Origin: Stagnimonas sp.
Lineage (GTDB): Bacteria; Pseudomonadota; Gammaproteobacteria; Nevskiales; Nevskiaceae
NCBI GenBank assembly: GCA_030652575.1
Contig: JAUSQI010000004.1
Location: forward strand, 1 to 34,868
Direction: 5' to 3'
DNA length: 34,868 nucleotides
The position numbers and the translations under genes were made by a program. The notes beneath the pieces were generated by a model, which made no database searches, was not told the DNA's origin, and saw nothing but the letters and a program-made list of their open reading frames with translations. Below are positions 1,176 through 9,526 of this stretch, in pieces. Position 1 is the first letter of the stretch. Every line of letters begins with the position of its first letter.

Positions 1176-1369
1176 CGTGAAGATCCATTTGGCAGGCCAA
1201 TGCTCATGTGCTTCGGTGCTAACATTTACCTTGACTGAGTTTGGCCATTTCGCCCGAAGCCGTGAGCTTGGAATAGAAGAGGCGCATCAGCTCTGCAGAG
1301 GCAGCATCGGAGGTTGACCACAGCGTTGAGATCACGGCCCTGGCATTGCGCGACAGCATGAATTGGCCC
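1176..1369 (-). pseudogene. Scrambled remnant of the promoter / CHAT-protease region
   Basis: Two pieces of the intact locus are joined here. Bases 1176-1235 resemble 5254-5325: a decayed TTTGGCAGG in place of TTTGTCAGG, then the shared GGTGCTAAC(A/G)TTTAC. Bases 1248-1369 match 6010-6125, the 3' part of the CHAT gene, and still encode in frame the CHAT C-terminal segment with SRNARAVISTLW and FYSKLTASGE. Everything between (the small membrane gene and the last codons of CHAT) is missing, as are the CHAT catalytic His and Cys. This is a dead duplicate left from a tandem duplication of the island. Bases 1159-1497 hold no intact gene. Confidence 0.75.
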
Positions 1370-1376
1370 GACATAT

Positions 1377-1402
1377 CCGCCACCTCCGCCACCTCCGCCA
1401 CC
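1377..1402. repeat. Nine-base tandem repeat, almost three copies
   Basis: CCGCCACCT is repeated nearly three times exactly where homology to the CHAT gene stops. It may mark the rearrangement junction. Confidence 0.6.
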
Positions 1403-1497: not shown

Positions 1498-3993
1498 CTA
1501 GTTACCAGTCATCAGCGTGGAGAGAGCTACAGAGCGCCGCATCCGACGCCTGCACAGCAGTCCCGCTCCGAGAGCGAACACTCCCACTCCAAACGATCCA
1601 CCACCCGAGGAACCGCCACCGGTGCCGGGATTGGTCGGCGTAGTGGGCGGCGTCGGGGTGGGCACCGCGCTACCCGTGACAAAGACCGTCTTGGTGGTCG
1701 AGCCACCCGCACCGGTGCAGGTCAGGTTGTAAGTGTTGGTGCCGACGTTGCTCACCGTCACGTTGGCCGACGCGCTGGTGCTCTGCGCACCGGCCCAGTC
1801 GCCCGTCGCGCTGCAGCTGTCGGTGTTCGAGCTGTTCCAGCTCAGCAGCACCGTGGTGCCCTGCGTAGCGAAGGTGCTGGACGTGCTGAAGTTCAGCACC
1901 GGAGCCACCCTGGGGTTGGCGGTGACGGGAACCGTAATCACCACTTCCCCACCGTTATTTCCTTGGCAAATCATGATGTAGCGGTTGTCGCCCTGTATTG
2001 GGGTCACCGTCTCGCTACCGCTCAGTGCCTTGGCACCCGTCCAGGCACCTTCAGCGCGGCAGGTGGCGGTGTTGGCGGAGTTCCAGTTCAGCGTGACCGT
2101 TTCGCCCACGAAGACCGTGGAGGCGCTGGTCACAAAGCTCAGCGTGCCAGCAGCCGGGGCGCTCACAGCGACGGTGACGCTGCTATCGGTGACCACCTGC
2201 GCATCATTTCGGCAGCTCAGGTTATAGGTGTGGTCGCCGGTGTTGCTGACCGTGAAGGTCTCGGTGCCACTGGGGTCCACACCGTGATCGGCGAGTTCAT
2301 CGCCGGCGAGGTGGCAGAAGCCAGCCTTGGTGGTGGACCAGTTGAGGGTGACCGACTCGCCCGTGTTGAGCGAGGCCTTGGTCGAAGTGAGGCTTACCGT
2401 CGAGGAACCGGCGCGAGCGGCGTTGTAGCTGCCGTCGCGCTGGGATATCCCGGTGTTGCTCGGGTCGAGCCAGAACTTGTAGGCGTTGGCGCTCGTGGCG
2501 CTGGCCGGGCCGTAGTAGGCCTCGCGGAAGCGCTGGTAGTTGGCGGTGTCACCAGCTGTAGAGCTAGAGTTTGTGGGGCAGGTATCGTCAGACGATGTGG
2601 AGAGCGTGCCTATGATCTGCTTTTTAGACGCATACCAAAGACCAGACCCGGAAGCGCCCGCAGCTATGCGACCAGTGGTCAACATAGGCCGCAGCTTAAG
2701 CGCCCATGCCTGGTAGGTCGGGCCGGTTTTCGGCTTGCCATCGGGGCCAGCGTAGCTGGGCATCGTCTGCTGGAAGGTGTAAGTCAGCGCGCTGTTGGCG
2801 TTGGAGTTGGCAGTGGTGCCCGTTTCGACATACTGCTTGGTGTGACTCCGGCCATGGTGAATACCAAAGAGAACCTGCTCTTTAATTGCTTCGCAATAAG
2901 GAGTCTTCGGGTCGTAGCTTGGGCTGCTCGGATCACAGAAGCGCGCCTCGCTGCTGGCATTAGGGTTCGCCGGGTCATAGGCAGGGTAGCCCTTGAAATT
3001 GACAACATTTTCGGCCGTCCAGCCAGCCCAGTAAGGGTTGGCACCGAAGGGAGGCGCATCGGTGGCTTCGAGCAGCAATGCGTCGCCAGTCATCGCACGG
3101 ATGACGGCACCGGTGGTTTCCTTGGAGGGGTCGTTGCGCACGAAGTCGAGATCCGTGCCGCAAGGGGTCTCCTGCGACCAGCGGATGATGTAGCCGTCGG
3201 CGTTGGGCGGCAGGGCATCACCGTAGCTGATGCAGTGAGCGGCAGTGGCCAGGAAGGTCGTGAAGCTGCCGCTGGCGTCGTTCACGAGATTGGCCGTGCA
3301 GAAGTCCACACCGAACACGGTGAGGCCGACGATGGCCTGGCCCGGATCGGTGATCTCGGGCTTGCTGTTGCGCTCGCAGATGAAGTTGCGGTCGCAGCTG
3401 GAATTGTCGTAACTGTTGCCCGATCCAGCCTGCGCCTTGGTCGGGTTCTTCTTGGCGTTGTAGGCAGCCTTGAGGCCAGCGAGCAGGGGGTGATCTGCAC
3501 CGCCAGGCACCAGTGACTTGTAGCCGACGTTGAAGCGGTCGATGGAGAAGCGGGCCATGCCCTTCGACGCGGCCGGCATGCGCACGATGACGGTGAGCTG
3601 TGAGCCCTCGAGCGCAGAGGTCAGCATCGTGCCACTGCGGAAGCGGTTGGCGCCGTAAACAGCCTTGGCCTTCTCGGTCGCAACCTCGACGGTGGCGGAG
3701 GGCGGCAGGAAGGCATCGTCAGCGTAGAAGCCCATCGACACAGCGCCGGGCACTTCGATGGCGTAGGTCCAGACGGCAAGGTTGCCGTCCTGAGTCCAGG
3801 CACCGCGGGTCTTGGCGTTGACGCGCTTGATCAGCGGCTCGGCGAAGCGGCTCGGGCTGTCGAGGTGGGTGGAGATGGCCTTGGCGAAGTTAAATGTTGC
3901 CTTCTCCACGCTGGGAGAAGGCAACGGGTTCACTTGTGCCAAAACCAGCTGACAAGATCCCAAGAACAGCACCATCAGCTTCTTATAGTTCAC
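1498..3993 (-). CDS. Secreted trypsin-like serine protease with three Ig-like repeats and a GlyGly-CTERM-like tail
   Basis: An 831-residue exported protein. It starts at GTG 3993 behind GGGGAGGT. Residues 1-20 are a signal peptide; about 30-190 is a propeptide-like region. The chymotrypsin-fold protease core spans about 195-515, with likely triad His253 (TAAHC), Asp304 (GDALLLE) and Ser448 (GASGSG), and many cysteines as in lysyl-endopeptidase-type enzymes. Three related domains of about 75-85 residues follow (about 530-614, 615-698, 699-773), each with a LNWS/LNWN/LSWN strand and two cysteines. The end carries a Thr/Pro linker, a Gly/Ser-rich stretch, a hydrophobic segment and an Arg cluster, the layout of GlyGly-CTERM signals handled by rhombosortase, here with about 11 extra residues after the arginines. 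Substrate unknown; probably surface-anchored or released by type II secretion. Promoter motif at 4028-4055. Confidence 0.88.
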   Translation of the reverse strand: MNYKKLMVLFLGSCQLVLAQVNPLPSPSVEKATFNFAKAISTHLDSPSRFAEPLIKRVNAKTRGAWTQDGNLAVWTYAIEVPGAVSMGFYADDAFLPPSATVEVATEKAKAVYGANRFRSGTMLTSALEGSQLTVIVRMPAASKGMARFSIDRFNVGYKSLVPGGADHPLLAGLKAAYNAKKNPTKAQAGSGNSYDNSSCDRNFICERNSKPEITDPGQAIVGLTVFGVDFCTANLVNDASGSFTTFLATAAHCISYGDALPPNADGYIIRWSQETPCGTDLDFVRNDPSKETTGAVIRAMTGDALLLEATDAPPFGANPYWAGWTAENVVNFKGYPAYDPANPNASSEARFCDPSSPSYDPKTPYCEAIKEQVLFGIHHGRSHTKQYVETGTTANSNANSALTYTFQQTMPSYAGPDGKPKTGPTYQAWALKLRPMLTTGRIAAGASGSGLWYASKKQIIGTLSTSSDDTCPTNSSSTAGDTANYQRFREAYYGPASATSANAYKFWLDPSNTGISQRDGSYNAARAGSSTVSLTSTKASLNTGESVTLNWSTTKAGFCHLAGDELADHGVDPSGTETFTVSNTGDHTYNLSCRNDAQVVTDSSVTVAVSAPAAGTLSFVTSASTVFVGETVTLNWNSANTATCRAEGAWTGAKALSGSETVTPIQGDNRYIMICQGNNGGEVVITVPVTANPRVAPVLNFSTSSTFATQGTTVLLSWNSSNTDSCSATGDWAGAQSTSASANVTVSNVGTNTYNLTCTGAGGSTTKTVFVTGSAVPTPTPPTTPTNPGTGGGSSGGGSFGVGVFALGAGLLCRRRMRRSVALSTLMTGN

Positions 3994-4027: not shown

Positions 4028-4055
4028 AGAACGGTTGGGTGGCGGATTTGTCAGG
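4028..4055 (-). promoter_or_regulatory. ECF-type promoter motif, copy 3 (complete protease)
   Basis: CCTGACAAA, 11 bases, ACCGTTCT on the minus strand, ending 35 bp from the GTG start. The -35-like and -10-like blocks are identical to copy 1 although the 11-base spacer differs, which suggests the blocks rather than the whole leader are conserved. Confidence 0.75.
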
Positions 4056-4075: not shown

Positions 4076-5155
4076 TCACTCCAAGAGGTTTATCGGTTGC
4101 CCACTGCGGTCGTAAAAATCAATTTGTTGAACTGAAAAATCTATCTCGAATATTGGGTCGCCGTCACTGCGGATTGAATTGGGTATCGTTATTGCTTTTA
4201 CTGGCTTCGTTTTAACAGCGGCAAGTATGCGACGAGGCCCCAGATTACTGACGGCTTGTTGGATAGCGCGAGCCTTGACCACATCTTTAACCTCAATGAA
4301 ATAATTTGGTTCTGGCACATAACCCATCTTCATACTCCTGCCGTCGAAGGTAACTCGAATTGGAACCTGAGATGTCAAAGCACTGGTTCCCAATTCATTT
4401 CGCTGATATCTCGGATATCCTTCGTCGTCTGCGAAATGGGATGTTTTGACTAACACTGGATAACCTTTTTTCTCAAAATTATACTCATAGAATGTGATCC
4501 AAACTGGGAATATATAAACCTTGTCTTTTTTGAAAAAGGACAACATGTTTTTTACCTTCTCGCGACCGCTGGCTTCCAAATCTTTCTTCGAAAAAGGATC
4601 GGTGTCGAAGTAAGTGTCATTTAAGGCTGCACTTATCGCAATATCTTCTGACTCAGCATATCCAAGTTTCTTAGGTGTCGAAATGTTTCTGAGCAGAAAG
4701 TAAAGACCCCAAACGGGACCTTCCACGTCAGCATAGCCTGAATCGCCCAGAACTATAGATCCACTAGTTTGCGGCGGAAGTGCACAAGCCGCTGGGAAAC
4801 TACGGCCAGTGATAAATTCAACTTGGCCTCCCCCAGTCAAATAATGATTATAACTGTCGCACTTTTTATCTGACCGCCAATCTGCGGCAGTGATATAGCC
4901 ACGAGCCGATGATTTGGGAGAAGTTTGGTTCTGTGGGGGGATGACTCCCTTTTCCTTGGCTTTTTCGACAATGCTGTTTTTTAGTCCGTTGAGCAGTGCG
5001 TCAAAGCCGTCTGCGTAAATGAGATCAGATGTTAACAATATAAAAACAGAAAAAATTATTCTAATAATGTTATTTATTTTTCTTTTAATATTGCATTTAT
5101 TAAAATCCGGTAGAGATGGTTGTCCCGTTTTTACTTTTGAAATTTTCTTATTCAA
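4076..5155 (-). CDS. Exported protein of unknown function, AT-rich
   Basis: I do not recognise this family. The frame is open from 5287, but the ATG there lies upstream of the promoter motif at 5249-5276, so it cannot be the start if that promoter is used. The first plausible start downstream is TTG 5155 behind GGGGGGAAA, giving 359 residues. A basic stretch (KRKINN) and a hydrophobic segment (about residues 25-45, ending LIYADG) look like a signal peptide with a long n-region. The mature part (about 310 residues) has one close pair of cysteines (KKCDSY and AACALPP), many aromatic residues and no membrane segments. Base composition is clearly more AT-rich than both neighbours, with ATA/TTA codons, which suggests recent acquisition. 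It sits between the protease and the small membrane gene and seems to share their regulation. Confidence 0.7.
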   Translation of the reverse strand: MNKKISKVKTGQPSLPDFNKCNIKRKINNIIRIIFSVFILLTSDLIYADGFDALLNGLKNSIVEKAKEKGVIPPQNQTSPKSSARGYITAADWRSDKKCDSYNHYLTGGGQVEFITGRSFPAACALPPQTSGSIVLGDSGYADVEGPVWGLYFLLRNISTPKKLGYAESEDIAISAALNDTYFDTDPFSKKDLEASGREKVKNMLSFFKKDKVYIFPVWITFYEYNFEKKGYPVLVKTSHFADDEGYPRYQRNELGTSALTSQVPIRVTFDGRSMKMGYVPEPNYFIEVKDVVKARAIQQAVSNLGPRRILAAVKTKPVKAITIPNSIRSDGDPIFEIDFSVQQIDFYDRSGQPINLLE

Positions 5156-5248
5156 AATTGTTTCCCCCCGATATATTGTATGGATGTAGAAATATTTGTC
5201 TGTGGGGACGGAGCTCGCGCCGCTGTCATGAGTGACCGTCTCCAAAGG

Positions 5249-5276
5249 AAGACGGTCAAGGTTTACTTTTGTCAGG
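5249..5276 (-). promoter_or_regulatory. ECF-type promoter motif, copy 4 (AT-rich exported protein)
   Basis: CCTGACAAA, 11 bases, ACCGTCTT on the minus strand. It lies inside the longest possible reading frame of the gene below it, and so argues for the shorter start at 5155, leaving a leader of about 90 bases. Confidence 0.72.
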
Positions 5277-5345
5277 GCAGCAACCAAATGGAGCTTTGGT
5301 GCTAACGTTTACTAACTTGATTTATTGGGAATCCGCTGTTCGCTA

Positions 5346-5903
5346 ATGATCAACTCCACCCCCTCCGACAGATTGCAAGATGCTATCGCTGCTGGCATGG
5401 AAGATGCTTGGGCTGCGAAAGCAGGTCATGTGAGCGAGACACAGATGCAACGCTTTCGCGAGCGGCTGATGGCTGCTGGCGTAACAGGCGCGAACGCCTC
5501 GGCTGCTGGTGCAGTCGCGAACTTGCCGAAACGACATCAAACAGCATGGGCGCTGGCCGCCTCAGTGGCTGCTGTGTGCGTGGTCGGCACCTTGCTGAGT
5601 GTGCAAATCAACAAAGGCACGGACCTGGCCGTGGAAAAGACCGAGCCTACGAGAGGTGTGCTGGCGGTGTTTCGAGTCTCGCAAGATCAGCCCCGCGTGG
5701 AGGCCGCTCTGCAAGCAGCTGGCATCGCCTTCAGCCGCGTTCTGGGCGAACCTGGCGCACTTAAAGCGAATGTTGCCGCCGATCAGTTACTGCGCTTTCA
5801 AATGGCCTTGAAGACCCTCGGGTTAGATCCCGACGCTTACCCCGCAGAAGCCGCAGGCGACTACTTGCTTTTGACTAAGGGGCTGCCGTCCTACGCTCAG
5901 TGA
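5346..5903 (+). CDS. Single-pass membrane protein, candidate anti-sigma or sigma-regulator
   Basis: 185 residues: an N-terminal soluble part of about 65 residues (predicted helical, MINSTPSDRLQDAIAAGMED onward), one membrane helix at about 67-86 (TAWALAASVAAVCVVGTLL), and a C-terminal domain of about 95 residues that would lie in the periplasm if the N-terminus is cytoplasmic. No zinc-binding HxxxCxxC anti-sigma motif is present. I prefer ATG 5346; an in-frame TTG at 5325 is possible. Its last 29 bases overlap the end of the CHAT gene on the other strand. The topology is that of a membrane anti-sigma factor, and an ECF-like sigma gene sits at the other end of the CHAT gene, but sequence alone does not prove the role. 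No copy of the island promoter motif faces it. Confidence 0.65.
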   Translation: MINSTPSDRLQDAIAAGMEDAWAAKAGHVSETQMQRFRERLMAAGVTGANASAAGAVANLPKRHQTAWALAASVAAVCVVGTLLSVQINKGTDLAVEKTEPTRGVLAVFRVSQDQPRVEAALQAAGIAFSRVLGEPGALKANVAADQLLRFQMALKTLGLDPDAYPAEAAGDYLLLTKGLPSYAQ

Positions 5904-8787
5904 GCACGTAGGGTGCCCAGTAATAAGGGTGCGAACGGCCGTTGCCAGCTGCAGCACCGGATTTACCGGCGATGAGATCGAGTTGTGCCGCCCGCAGCGC
6001 CTCTTCTTCGCCCGAAGCCGTCAGCTTGGAATAGAAGTGGCGCATCAGTTCCACAGATGCGGAGTCAGACGTAGACCAGAGCGTTGAGATCACGGCCCTG
6101 GCATTGCGCGACAGCATGAACTGGCCCAAACCATCAACTTCTCGCCCGAACGCAGTTCGGGTATCGACTCCGGTAGAGCAGGCCGCGAGCACCACGAGCT
6201 GCTGACCATCAAATTGCAGATCGCTCTGATCCAGCTCAGTGAGGGTGACACGCCGCCCGCCGCCGAGAATGAGGAAGCTATCGGCCTCGCTGCCGGGCGC
6301 CAGTGCAAAGTGGCTGCTGATATGAATAATCGAATAGTGCTCTTTAACGGCACTGCTCAGCGCTGCCAGAGAGAAATCCGAACCGATCCAGGCGCGGCCA
6401 GAAAACAGAAACGCAGCACTAGGCCCACTGGCCAACATGCGAGCTTCTTCCACTACGGCCGGTATTGCCGGCAGTCCGTAGCCACCGGTAGGGTCGGCAA
6501 AAGCCGCAACGCGCGTCTTGGCATTGCCGGGGCCATTCTTCACCTCCGACTTGGCCGCGCTGATGCGGTTCTTAAAGGTGTATCGCTCAACCAGATAGCT
6601 TTTGCCATCGTGCAGTGCGGCAAACGGGATGTATCGAAGCACGTCGTCGGCTTCGATTTGAAGATCTGTAATGCGGTCTTGATTCAGTTCGGCTGCGATC
6701 GGCGCCAGCAACAGACGATTGAGTTGCTGGGCAGGAGCAAGGGCGGAAACGCTGGGGCTTTGCAAGGCACTGCGAAACGCTTTGACCAAAGTGCCGAGCT
6801 CAGCCCGCGAAATCGTTTCCATGATGGTGCGGCGGGTAGTGGCGGACTCGTAAAAAATCCAGGTGGCCCTATCAGTCACCAGATATTTGATTGCGGCGCA
6901 TCGCTCACCACAATTGGCGGTGGCAGCTGCTGCCTTGGTGAGCTGGGCGCGGCTTTGCTCGCGGATTGCGCGCTTTTTGAAGGCTGCATCCACTTGTGCG
7001 AACAGCGTGAGATATCTGCCACCCACGGGCTTGGCCGGGCGCGCTTCGGTAGAGGCCGCTGCAGCTTTTTTGTTGGCCGCCACGATGGCGTCATAGCGCT
7101 TGAGGAAGCTGAGTTCCGGCTCTGCGTATGCGAGTTGTGAATACTGGCCATCGGTTGCGCGCAGCGTCCAGGCGCCCAGTTCTCGGTTGTGTAGCGTTGT
7201 GAGCGCCACATCCGCCTGATCGAACATCTTGGCCTGCGCAAAAGCGATGGCAGCATCTTCGTAGTACTTACGCGCACCGATGAGATTGGGATCTGAAATA
7301 CCTCCGGCTTTCGAGAGCTGTTCGCGCTCGTTGAACGCGATCCGGCACCAGAAAGGCGCGCTGGGATTGGAGGCGGCATTCAAGGTGCGGCAGAGCTCGA
7401 AGGTGATCTCGTTGTGTTGCTCGTCATAGCCGGGGGCAAAGTCCATGTTCTCCTGCGCTTGCCAGTGCAGAGCGATGGCCTGTGAATACTTGCCCTGCAT
7501 GCGCCGCACGATCGCAGCGATGCTCTGTGCTCGGCCGGTGTAGTACGGGCTGTCCAGCTTGACGGCAAGCTGGTTGAGATCGTTCAAGTGGGTCTCTGCG
7601 AGTTTGAAGTCGTCCGCCAACGCCGCAATCTCAGCGGCATTGATGACGGCCTCAAAACGGAAGATCTCCCCCATGTCCGCATTGAGGAGCTTGATCGAAT
7701 CTTCCGCGTAGCCAAGCGCCGCCTTGTATTTGCCGAGCTTGGTTTGTATGTAGCCGAGTGCCTGTGCGGACCCCATCATCAAACCTGCCTGGCCGGTCTT
7801 GGTCGCAAGCTCGCGCACCTTCAACATGTTTTTCGTGGCCGCTTCGTAGTTGCCGGAGTGCGCCAGAATCGTGCCTTGGATGTAGTACGCCGTCGTGAAG
7901 TAGGGGTGCTTTACTGACTCGATGATGGGGATGGCATTGGCAACGACCGCGTTGGCCTCTGCGTATTGGCCGTTGCGTACCAGCTGGTTGGCGAGGCTTA
8001 CGTCGCTGAGCGCGGCTTCTACGGGATCACCGCTTTGCATGAAGAGCTCAGACGCCTTTCTGGATTTCTCGATGGCTAGCGTGAGCTTGCCTGACAGGCT
8101 GGCGAGATTGGCCTGCACGCGATTGACCTTGCCCAGGCCAGCGGTGTCGTGCAACTCGGAATAGATGCGCTCGGCCGTCTCTATGGGCGCGGTGACCTCG
8201 GGCAATTTGCCCAGAAAGACCAAGCTATTCGCCAAGGCCAAGCTGCTGTCTGCGGTCAGCTTGGCGTTTTTGGCTACGGTGGCCAAGCGGGTTGCAGTCT
8301 CGGCCTCGACAATCGAATCGGCGAACTTCGCCTGAAATACCAGAACGTTGCAGATCAGCAGATGTGCCTCTGCCTCAAGCCCAGGTAGTTTGTTGGCGGC
8401 GGCAAACGACACCACCGAGGCGGCAGCAGCACTCGCCACTGCAAAGCGCTGCGCCTTCATGGCGATCCTGCCGCCTTCCAAAAGGAGCGACATCCCTTTT
8501 TCAGAGGGCTTGATCGCGTTCTCTAACAGGCCCGCGATGAGTTTTTCGTCCTTGATCAGGTTTGGCTTTGCTTGCAATGCCGCCTTCAGGCGCGCAACGT
8601 CTGCTGGCGGGGCCGCGACGAGTGCGTTCTGGGTGGCGCTGAAGTCTGAAACGGCCTCGCCGTCAATCAGCCCTTGCACCACGGCTTGCGGAAGCGGTGA
8701 GGCCGTCTGTGCTGCGGCGACGAAGCTGGTTACTGAGCAACAAAAAATGAGTGATGCAATCCAAACAGCACGATTTTGCGATGTCAT
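5875..8787 (-). CDS. Secreted TPR-CHAT caspase-like protease
   Basis: 970 residues. Residues 1-25 form a signal peptide (ending FVAAAQ), so the protein is probably periplasmic or secreted. About 100-600 is a long helical repeat region of TPR type. The CHAT domain (caspase-fold peptidase) fills roughly 690-960, with the expected dyad: His826 in HISSHF and Cys870 in VVLAACSTG, followed by the family motif RAVISTLW and an EEALRAAQ helix. I chose ATG 8787 (AAGG about 7 bases upstream). A longer frame to 9006 would run through the promoter motif at 8818-8845 and into the sigma gene. CHAT proteases are activated through their repeat domain and cut specific partner proteins; the partner here is unknown. 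Its 3' end overlaps the membrane protein gene on the other strand. A dead fragment of a second copy lies at 1248-1369. Confidence 0.88.
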   Translation of the reverse strand: MTSQNRAVWIASLIFCCSVTSFVAAAQTASPLPQAVVQGLIDGEAVSDFSATQNALVAAPPADVARLKAALQAKPNLIKDEKLIAGLLENAIKPSEKGMSLLLEGGRIAMKAQRFAVASAAAASVVSFAAANKLPGLEAEAHLLICNVLVFQAKFADSIVEAETATRLATVAKNAKLTADSSLALANSLVFLGKLPEVTAPIETAERIYSELHDTAGLGKVNRVQANLASLSGKLTLAIEKSRKASELFMQSGDPVEAALSDVSLANQLVRNGQYAEANAVVANAIPIIESVKHPYFTTAYYIQGTILAHSGNYEAATKNMLKVRELATKTGQAGLMMGSAQALGYIQTKLGKYKAALGYAEDSIKLLNADMGEIFRFEAVINAAEIAALADDFKLAETHLNDLNQLAVKLDSPYYTGRAQSIAAIVRRMQGKYSQAIALHWQAQENMDFAPGYDEQHNEITFELCRTLNAASNPSAPFWCRIAFNEREQLSKAGGISDPNLIGARKYYEDAAIAFAQAKMFDQADVALTTLHNRELGAWTLRATDGQYSQLAYAEPELSFLKRYDAIVAANKKAAAASTEARPAKPVGGRYLTLFAQVDAAFKKRAIREQSRAQLTKAAAATANCGERCAAIKYLVTDRATWIFYESATTRRTIMETISRAELGTLVKAFRSALQSPSVSALAPAQQLNRLLLAPIAAELNQDRITDLQIEADDVLRYIPFAALHDGKSYLVERYTFKNRISAAKSEVKNGPGNAKTRVAAFADPTGGYGLPAIPAVVEEARMLASGPSAAFLFSGRAWIGSDFSLAALSSAVKEHYSIIHISSHFALAPGSEADSFLILGGGRRVTLTELDQSDLQFDGQQLVVLAACSTGVDTRTAFGREVDGLGQFMLSRNARAVISTLWSTSDSASVELMRHFYSKLTASGEEEALRAAQLDLIAGKSGAAAGNGRSHPYYWAPYVLTERRTAAP

Positions 8788-8817
8788 CGGTAGCCTTATC
8801 CCTGAAGTCGTACGACC

Positions 8818-8845
8818 ATAACGGTTGTGTTGCAAACTTGTCAGG
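8818..8845 (-). promoter_or_regulatory. ECF-type promoter motif, copy 5 (TPR-CHAT protease)
   Basis: CCTGACAAG, 11 bases, ACCGTTAT on the minus strand, ending 31 bp upstream of the CHAT ATG. The flanks are unrelated to the protease leaders, so conservation of both blocks and of the spacing here is the strongest sign that the motif is functional. Confidence 0.75.
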
Positions 8846-8908
8846 CATCGACTCAAAACAGATTTATGCGCCCCGACGCAGACAACGGGACTGACTGACG
8901 ATTCCCTC

Positions 8909-9526
8909 ATGGCTCTCGGCACCCAAAGACAAAAAACAACAAGCCTGCAACAGCTGGAGTCGAACCAACCCAATCGAAGCCAGTTGATTGAGCAGCTGTA
9001 TATCAAGCTGGCGCGACGGCTTGAGGCCTACATGGTCTCTCGCGGCCTGGCTGCTGATCGCGCCACCGACCTGGTGCAGGATGTTTTCGTGCGCGCACTC
9101 AAGAGCCTGCCTACTGCTGAAGGCTCATCACTTGAAGGCTGGCTATGGCGGGTCGCCAAGAATGTGCTGGTGGACGAGTACCGCCAAACCGGCCGGGTGC
9201 ATCTGGAAACCTTGAGCGAAGAACATGAGCTCGACGGCGAATCGTTCGACGATTGGATTTCTGGCTTGAGTGCGCCCATCGATGACATTGCACTGGAGCA
9301 GCTACGGCAATGTGTGTCGCTACGATACTGGCGATTTCGCGAGCAAAGCCCCGACCGGGCCGAAGTCGTCGAGTGGGCGATTCTCGACGAGCTGGACGGT
9401 GAGCAGGTATCGACGCTGATCGGCAGAACGGCCGGGGCGACGAGAGAGTTCCTGTCGCAGTCGAAAAAGAAGCTCAAAACGTACTTGGCACCTTGCCTGG
9501 CACTGTTGGATCGAAGAGGCCATTGA
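8909..9526 (+). CDS. ECF-like RNA polymerase sigma factor
   Basis: 205 residues. Region 2 spans about 25-100 (IEQLYIKLARRLEAYM, then ATDLVQDVFVRALKSL and GWLWRVAKNVLVDEYRQ), a typical core-binding and -10-recognition block. The C-terminal part (about 140-195) has a region-4-like helix-turn-helix (DGEQVSTLIGRTAGATREFL), but it is divergent and is preceded by an unusual RQCVSLRYWRFREQ stretch. The start is ATG 8909; the frame is open to 8825 but those residues fall in the divergent promoter region, and no strong ribosome binding site is visible. It is divergent from the CHAT gene. It is the obvious candidate to read the five-copy motif, although no copy precedes the sigma gene itself, so it may not be self-activated. 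A terminator follows at 9661. Confidence 0.85.
   Translation: MALGTQRQKTTSLQQLESNQPNRSQLIEQLYIKLARRLEAYMVSRGLAADRATDLVQDVFVRALKSLPTAEGSSLEGWLWRVAKNVLVDEYRQTGRVHLETLSEEHELDGESFDDWISGLSAPIDDIALEQLRQCVSLRYWRFREQSPDRAEVVEWAILDELDGEQVSTLIGRTAGATREFLSQSKKKLKTYLAPCLALLDRRGH

Follow-up and report, generated by a model that had tools for sequence, protein, structure and literature searches.

Extracytoplasmic function (ECF) sigma factors such as those of the RseA/RpoE and RsiW/SigW pairs are restrained by an anti-sigma factor that spans the membrane once, and are freed by proteolysis. To our knowledge, work on bacterial CHAT proteases has centred on cytoplasmic systems. The locus described here, from a Stagnimonas species (order Nevskiales; assembly GCA_030652575.1, genome of 3.44 Mb), encodes an ECF sigma factor, a single-pass membrane protein and a TPR-CHAT protease that is predicted to be exported; the window, as the whole stretch of 34,868 nucleotides analysed is called below, comes from a 34.9-kb contig (JAUSQI010000004.1), and the locus sits at its left end. 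Several related arrangements are in print. In type III-E CRISPR systems, the TPR-CHAT protein Csx29 cuts Csx30, the inhibitor of CASP-sigma, in an account which also mentions regulated proteolysis of the RseA/RpoE and RsiW/SigW type (PMC10028731). Genomic contexts with CHAT, subtilase and carboxypeptidase are reported for ECF54 sigma factors (PMC8999054), and sigma-70/metacaspase operons have been predicted in Myxococcus, Anaeromyxobacter, Haliangium, Sorangium, Ralstonia and Fibrobacter (PMC3501461). Neighbourhoods composed of EACC2, a caspase and an ECF sigma factor have been treated as immunity- or death-type systems (PMC8195603).

We consider it probable that the window carries a compact local ECF signalling module, in which a membrane-held sigma factor drives an exported caspase-fold protease and other exported proteins. 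The plus strand carries the genes of the sigma factor (8909-9526) and of the membrane protein (5346-5903), and the minus strand holds the TPR-CHAT gene (5875-8787), an open reading frame (ORF) at 4076-5287, the gene of exported protein B (1498-3993) and a second copy of the latter, copy A (1-236). A sequence-only reading had placed four gene types here, namely, an ECF sigma factor, a TPR-CHAT protease, a single-pass membrane protein and secreted proteases; all four were found at those positions, with small corrections such as the distinction between the CHAT ORF (5875-9006) and the CHAT start. The ATG at 8787, which yields a product of 970 amino acids (aa), fits both the promoter described below and a signal-peptide-like N-terminus.

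The sigma factor (205 aa, start codon ATG at 8909) contains region 2 (Pfam Sigma70_r2, E = 1.3e-10) and a GATREFLSQ-type region 4, which in Pfam is weak by itself (12.8 bits against a cut-off of 25.7). The protein exceeds the cut-off of the superfamily model TIGR02937 (44.3 against 42.9 bits), a model matched at E <= 1e-3 by all 22 aligned sigma members, and shares 26 to 35% identity with 10 homologues. The CHAT protein conforms to a TPR-CHAT caspase-fold protease by its domains (PF12770, E = 3.7e-50, plus TPRs matched by TPR_12) and by its His/Cys dyad, which, numbered from the start at 8787, falls at His826 and Cys870, the latter as the sequence-only reading had it. Both residues are invariant in all 13 proteins of an alignment composed of the window CHAT and 12 proteins hand-picked from 22 CHAT loci. 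Regular expressions failed to find the His motif in the CHAT of L046 and L075 and the Cys motif in that of L053, L054, L056, L058, L075 and one L057 copy; despite this, the Cys column of the alignment is invariant in L053, L054 and L058. The window CHAT is, on sequence grounds, a predicted protease with an intact dyad, and many of its homologues likewise begin with a signal-peptide-like stretch, as judged heuristically. A phmmer search of the window CHAT against the PDB yielded no match at E <= 0.01; the CHAT profile matched 143 PDB sequences at that threshold, 60 of which, among the matches listed, align to the TPR part. A defence-system reading of the CHAT was considered and set aside, PADLOC having yielded just weak BovA and TPR matches.

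The sequence-only reading further proposed that the sigma factor switches on the CHAT gene and the secreted proteases through a shared motif, TTGTCAGGCNTCGA as read from the sequence, which has exactly two matches in the genome (4048 and 8838). When this motif was read in reverse complement and the minus-strand genes were aligned by their starts, a tighter pattern appeared, CCTGACAA-N13-CCGT[CT], of which the minus-strand form of TTGTCAGGCNTCGA is a part. Exactly four sites of this pattern occur in the 3.44-Mb genome, and all four lie on the minus strand of the window, where each precedes a gene whose product is predicted to be exported: those of copy A (273-298), exported protein B (4030-4055) and CHAT (8820-8845, with its 3' edge 33 nucleotides before the CHAT start codon) have the form CCTGAC-N16-CGTT, and that of the 4076-5287 gene (5251-5276) has the form CCTGAC-N16-CGTC. 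Permitting one mismatch adds three sites, which we regard as background because the reversed pattern with one mismatch gives 11. The relaxed pattern CCTGAC-N16-CGT[CT] has eight sites in the genome; it is their clustering rather than their total that is notable, since five of the eight fall in the window and the reversed control totals 11. Second-order Markov versions of the window (n = 300) contained a mean of 0.18 relaxed sites and a maximum of 2.

Whether these genes belong together was assessed from the sigma factor alone, through an alignment scan with the pattern GATR[EQ][YF][LVI]SQ across a contig collection of 84,980 species, a search which is blind to the CHAT and the membrane protein. 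From other genomes, often metagenome assemblies, the scan returned 43 loci, representing Steroidobacter, Solimonas, Oceanococcus, Spongiibacter, Polaromonas, Aquabacterium, Roseateles, Pelomonas, Paucibacter, Rubrivivax, Gallionella, Mariprofundus, Sulfuritalea and others. A membrane protein gene accompanies the sigma gene in 40 of the 43 loci (38 downstream and 2 upstream) and is usually its immediate neighbour, compared with a distance of approximately 3 kb in the window; in L034, a caspase gene stands between the two. At least one caspase-fold gene is present in 33 of the 43 loci, with CHAT in 22, a C14 caspase in 17 and both in 6. Presence was assigned with profiles built here, applied in six-frame searches, because a simple gene caller misses genes in the AT-rich loci L032, L052, L073 and L076; Pfam confirms CHAT in L034, L062 and L063, C14 in L034 and L042, and VWA/YfbK in L026. 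Four further loci (L024 and L026 to L028) show the order VWA, membrane protein, sigma factor. As a background figure, CHAT is rare, with one in 12 of 85 genomes of the order (own included). The view that the sigma factor, the membrane protein and CHAT form a set thus finds support in loci collected by the sigma factor only, and homologous loci that consistently go without one of the partners, which the sequence-only reading had named as counter-evidence, did not emerge. We regard the set of sigma factor, probable anti-sigma factor and exported caspase-fold protease as a well-supported conserved module. The inclusion of trypsin-like proteins in that module found no support: BLAST of 48 loci returned only one match, of 34 residues, which lies in L035 on the other strand from its sigma operon. 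We take these proteins to be local additions. Two module-bearing metagenome contigs, L046 and L051, are titled Bordetella parapertussis, which may be doubtful labels of metagenome-assembled genomes.

The promoter recurs in these loci at a strict spacing. Across 41 non-redundant loci (570,202 bases; L041 and L048 were dropped as copies of L040 and L047), CCTGAC-Nk-CGT[CT] has 74 sites at k = 16, distributed over 33 loci, and 0 to 8 at each of the remaining k values between 8 and 24, compared with 4 at k = 16 for the reversed pattern (0 to 8 over all k) and a mean of 3.45 (maximum 7) in 20 Markov controls. By our own gene calls, 66 of the 74 sites are intergenic, a category comprising 17.8% of the bases. 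The sites precede sigma operons, caspase and CHAT genes, and genes of small lipoproteins and other exported proteins, and one lies within approximately 260 nucleotides of the sigma start in 15 of the 41 loci. This cross-genome conservation supports the proposal that the sigma factor would drive the CHAT and exported protein genes through the shared motif. Divergent from the sigma gene in L053, L054, L056, L058 and L059 is a lipoprotein-like gene of 86 to 87 aa (...CD.GRWIELP..LMTC...) with a CCTGAC-N16-CGTC site of its own. Genome-wide counts of CCTGAC-N16-CGTC in 10 other genomes are for the most part close to or under the reversed-control counts (9 against 14 and 24 against 20, for instance), and several of these genomes have their sites concentrated at the sigma locus (3 of 4 in G458 and 6 of 14 in G453), from which the switch looks mainly local. 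G451, with 32 sites against 16 in the control, is an exception and may possess a wider regulon; one Solimonas genome, whose sigma factor has no membrane partner, has 2 sites against 14.

These data bear on the simplest alternative, namely, that the genes are functionally unrelated and became neighbours by chance or by joint horizontal transfer. The region does have the look of an accessory island with duplications: a search with the window CHAT gene returned nothing at E <= 1e-30 in the other 84 genomes of the order, and the window sigma gene has matches at E <= 1e-8 in 10 of the 85, own included. The recurrence of the same linkage in many genera, together with a shared promoter at a strict spacing, contradicts this explanation, which we judge very improbable.

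The membrane protein (185 aa, one hydrophobic helix) is the least readily classified member of the set. No family is matched above cut-off, the sole Pfam row being PF23600 (12.8 bits against 30), and no NCBIfam row was returned. A profile of 40 partners from other loci, from which the window protein was excluded and which left out L041, L043, L048, L059 and L060, scores the window protein at 24.9 bits (E = 5.8e-6, six-frame set, filters off), with a composition bias of 7.8 bits and the next window frame at E = 5. In block shuffles that keep the helix, 0 of 2000 reach the 25.1 bits of the window protein, the highest attaining 16.8. AlphaFold models of the window protein (predicted local distance difference test [pLDDT] of 72, predicted template modelling score [pTM] of 0.39) and of its L046 relative (pLDDT 83, pTM 0.47, with C-terminal domain blocks at 89 to 98) share one architecture, consisting of three N-terminal helices, a membrane helix and a small alpha/beta domain, which in the window protein (residues 93 to 185) is modelled as beta-alpha-beta-beta-alpha and predicted to be periplasmic. 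Fold searches of the PDB with both models gave, among the matches listed, nothing reliable (best Foldseek E values of 0.03 and 0.039; best VIA-align Z scores of 7.2 and 6.6, on assorted small alpha/beta domains), and the best PDB match of the family profile is an unrelated regulator (E = 0.033). Pfam found no family in more than 2 of 29 membrane protein relatives, the best single match being DUF3502 (E = 0.00016). The window protein thus matches no recognised anti-sigma domain model above cut-off, and the models present the layout of a helical N-terminus, one transmembrane helix and a C-terminal domain, in a predicted orientation, with a sigma gene in the same locus.

A comparable layout was encountered among other CHAT loci of the order, 10 of which (L100 to L109) were examined out of 12 other matches, the partial G023 and G036 being left out. 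Five of these loci (L102 to L106, from five genomes of one genus) comprise a CHAT gene, a divergent ECF sigma gene, a gene for a single-pass protein and then one for a giant protein. The sigma factors score E = 7.5e-7 to 1.5e-4 against the sigma profile, and, by eye, four of the five CHAT proteins begin with a signal-peptide-like stretch. Scans of three of the five single-pass proteins gave matches that all remain below cut-off: zf-HC2 in L104 (21.5 bits against 22.2), RskA_C in L102 (E = 0.009) and the anti-sigma model NF052375 in L106 (E = 0.00098). Because our membrane-partner profile does not detect these single-pass proteins, we treat the loci as a parallel arrangement, with membership of the same family not implied, and their divergent sigma factor probably reads another promoter, since CCTGAC-N16-CGTY has no site in any of the 10 CHAT loci. 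The giant proteins range from 1325 (cut) to 2130 aa; those scanned, from L102 and L104, show a pro-kumamolisin activation domain and immunoglobulin-like domains, and Pfam lists no peptidase domain in them. Against the type III-E CRISPR sigma model NF041236, the L102 and L106 sigma factors score 20 and 15.4 bits (cut-off 100). From its place in the locus, its architecture and this parallel triad, we infer that the membrane protein of the window probably acts as an anti-sigma factor.

Several observations weigh against the module as we read it. In the window, the three core genes do not constitute one operon, and no strong promoter copy precedes the sigma or the membrane protein gene. Genome-wide, the relaxed promoter is not commoner than its reversed control in the own genome (8 against 11 sites) and is rarer than that control in 6 of the 10 other genomes. 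In the homologous loci, the enrichment of signal peptides among promoter targets is modest and no more than suggestive (18 of 36 targets against 97 among 308 other genes, Fisher P = 0.039, by a crude rule and with L041, L048, locus-edge genes, low-scoring ORFs and the sigma and membrane protein genes left out). BLAST of the window membrane protein finds no relative in the 48 loci, and a first profile of 33 seeds, run with default filters, omits it at E <= 10; it is therefore the second profile and the shuffles which link the protein to the family, of which it is, to judge by a score of some 25 bits, a very diverged member. NF052375 is matched by 4 of the 29 relatives, weakly (best E = 0.0012), at 15 bits against a cut-off of 100 in the two that were re-scanned. 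Among the 43 loci, the three with no membrane protein are three Solimonas loci with the sigma factor only. Seven of the 40 membrane protein loci show no caspase-fold gene: L038 and L039 encode a YfbK-like VWA protein, L059 and L060 are cut by a contig end, and L055, L065 and L066 contain no substitute, L055 and L066 being short contigs. Finally, the other five of the 10 CHAT loci of the order carry no such triad.

In the mechanism which we propose for the module, the single-pass protein would hold the sigma factor at the inner membrane, with its N-terminal helices in the cytoplasm and its small alpha/beta domain in the periplasm. A periplasmic signal would disable the membrane protein, and the freed sigma factor would read the CCTGAC-N16-CGT[CT] promoters adjoining its own gene rather than promoters throughout the genome. 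The output in the window would comprise the secreted TPR-CHAT, two exported trypsin-like proteins (one of them truncated where the contig stops) and an additional exported protein. No other third partner recurs as constantly from species to species as the caspase-fold protease, which may thus be either the main effector or a part of the switch, in the latter case with positive feedback arising from cleavage of the membrane protein by CHAT. The odds appear evenly balanced that it is purely an effector, with another signal or protease throwing the switch and with CHAT and the other exported proteins acting in the periplasm or outside. The CHAT gene has its own promoter copy, as do the other exported protein genes, with no strong copy for the sigma and membrane protein genes, and the interchange of CHAT and C14, together with VWA partners in some loci, fits an exchangeable output; yet such an output would be expected to vary like the other exported genes, and the caspase fold is kept in 33 of the 43 loci.

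It is this constancy that lends some substance to the possible but doubtful alternative, proposed in the sequence-only reading, that CHAT is itself the trigger. The secreted CHAT would then cut the periplasmic domain of the membrane protein, intramembrane proteolysis would free the sigma factor, and the sigma factor would make more CHAT, in a switch that reinforces itself and forms a periplasmic counterpart of the cutting of Csx30 by Csx29. Other targets vary while the third gene is recurrently one for a caspase-fold protein (CHAT or C14), the catalytic residues are invariant in the 13 aligned CHAT proteins, signal-peptide-like N-termini are found heuristically on many CHAT proteins, and a cytoplasmic precedent is described in Csx29, Csx30 and their sigma factor (PMC10028731). 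On the other side stand the membrane protein loci which have no visible caspase-fold gene (L055, L065 and L066) or VWA in its place (L038 and L039), and L035, where a DegS/HtrA-like gene (Trypsin_2 plus PDZ) immediately before the sigma gene would supply a more usual site-1 protease. Broader still, and in our view unlikely, is the idea of a widespread, RNA-free extracytoplasmic triad in which site-1 cleavage of an anti-sigma factor falls to a periplasmic caspase-fold protease; the CRISPR type III-E set may then represent a later-captured cytoplasmic relative of this triad. If the protease does throw the switch, caspase-fold proteolysis would join the DegS-type proteases in cross-envelope signalling, and the origin of the sigma arm of Craspase would become a testable question.

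The remaining features of the locus concern the other exported proteins and the history of the region. Exported protein B has a hydrophobic N-terminus, trypsin-like His/Asp/Ser motifs recognised by eye (AAHC, DALLL and GASGSG) and a glycine-rich C-terminal tail; it has no Pfam or NCBIfam peptidase match, such that it is trypsin-like by motif only and an S1 assignment finds no backing in the models. Its tail scores 11.6 bits against TIGR03501 (GlyGly-CTERM; cut-off 15.5). The same genome encodes a rhombosortase (G000:C117:12245-12739, 110.3 bits against a cut-off of 84) and has 13 GlyGly-CTERM tails over cut-off. The product of the 4076-5287 ORF, which lies in AT-richer DNA, matches no Pfam or NCBIfam family above cut-off and is probably exported, given a hydrophobic N-terminal stretch seen by eye; its true start would lie downstream of the promoter, at TTG 5245 or, more likely, TTG 5155. 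Copy A is the 5' part of a second exported protein gene, 76% identical to copy B over 80 aa, and is truncated by the contig end, which falls inside the repeat. At the DNA level, the two copies share 83.6% identity across 304 bp, a likeness that ends at the outer edges of their promoters (298 and 4055). A fragment of the CHAT C-terminus (1219-1401, minus strand; 88% identical, PF12770 positions 223 to 254, no catalytic Cys) represents a pseudogene piece. The second exported protein copy and this fragment suggest that the island has undergone tandem duplication and decay. Copy A, the CHAT fragment and the site before the 4076-5287 gene were absent from the sequence-only reading.

Two further promoter-like sites lie on the plus strand. 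An exact fifth site (425-450, CCTGAC-N16-CGTC), after which the next called plus-strand gene starts at 632, is a possible relic, and a degenerate site with two mismatches (8801-8826) could serve the sigma gene, though it is weak and may be due to chance. Between copy A and the CHAT fragment are two small overlapping plus-strand genes (632-1158; 84 and 95 aa), antitoxin/RelE-like by eye, with no PADLOC match at E <= 0.01. A flanking ceramidase-like gene has no match in four other genomes of the genus, and thus no empty site is available for a comparison of island boundaries.

The sequence-only reading had called the module undescribed, a claim which is only partly upheld: ECF54-CHAT contexts and sigma-70/metacaspase operons are in print, and no report of the present module was found among the literature matches listed. 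Linkages of ECF sigma factors with CHAT and of sigma factors with caspases are already published in outline, and the sigma group may already have a number in the ECF reclassification. In the open literature, searched by titles and abstract openings among the matches listed, no paper describing this module or promoter was encountered. Through the module, a class of exported caspase-like proteases gains a promoter, a sigma factor and a probable inhibitor that can be tested, the protease here looking both exported and subject to a dedicated switch. Compared with RseA and RsiW, the present partner family has no recurrent Pfam match, and proteolysis is a proposal here. The ECF54 contexts resemble the locus in pairing an ECF sigma factor with CHAT, subtilase and carboxypeptidase; judged from its partial description, however, ECF54 is proposed to act without an anti-sigma factor, whereas the membrane partner is the most constant neighbour here (PMC8999054). 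The sigma-70/metacaspase operons likewise place a sigma factor and a caspase-fold gene in one predicted operon, and the available part of their description includes no membrane partner, promoter or secreted TPR-CHAT (PMC3501461). Caspase or trypsin-like domain proteins are similarly found near an ECF sigma factor in the EACC2 neighbourhoods, for which the accessible portion of the account includes no secreted CHAT (PMC8195603). In Craspase, as outlined in the source, a TPR-CHAT protein, an ECF-like sigma factor and a sigma-restraining protein are likewise encoded together (PMC10028731). The window CHAT falls short of the cut-off of the Csx29 model (NF041237, 14.4 bits against 300), and it is not among the 4 of 13 aligned CHAT proteins that match that model at E <= 1e-3 (best 2.7e-6). 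In contrast to Craspase, the CHAT of the window has a signal-peptide-like start, and its partner is a membrane protein.

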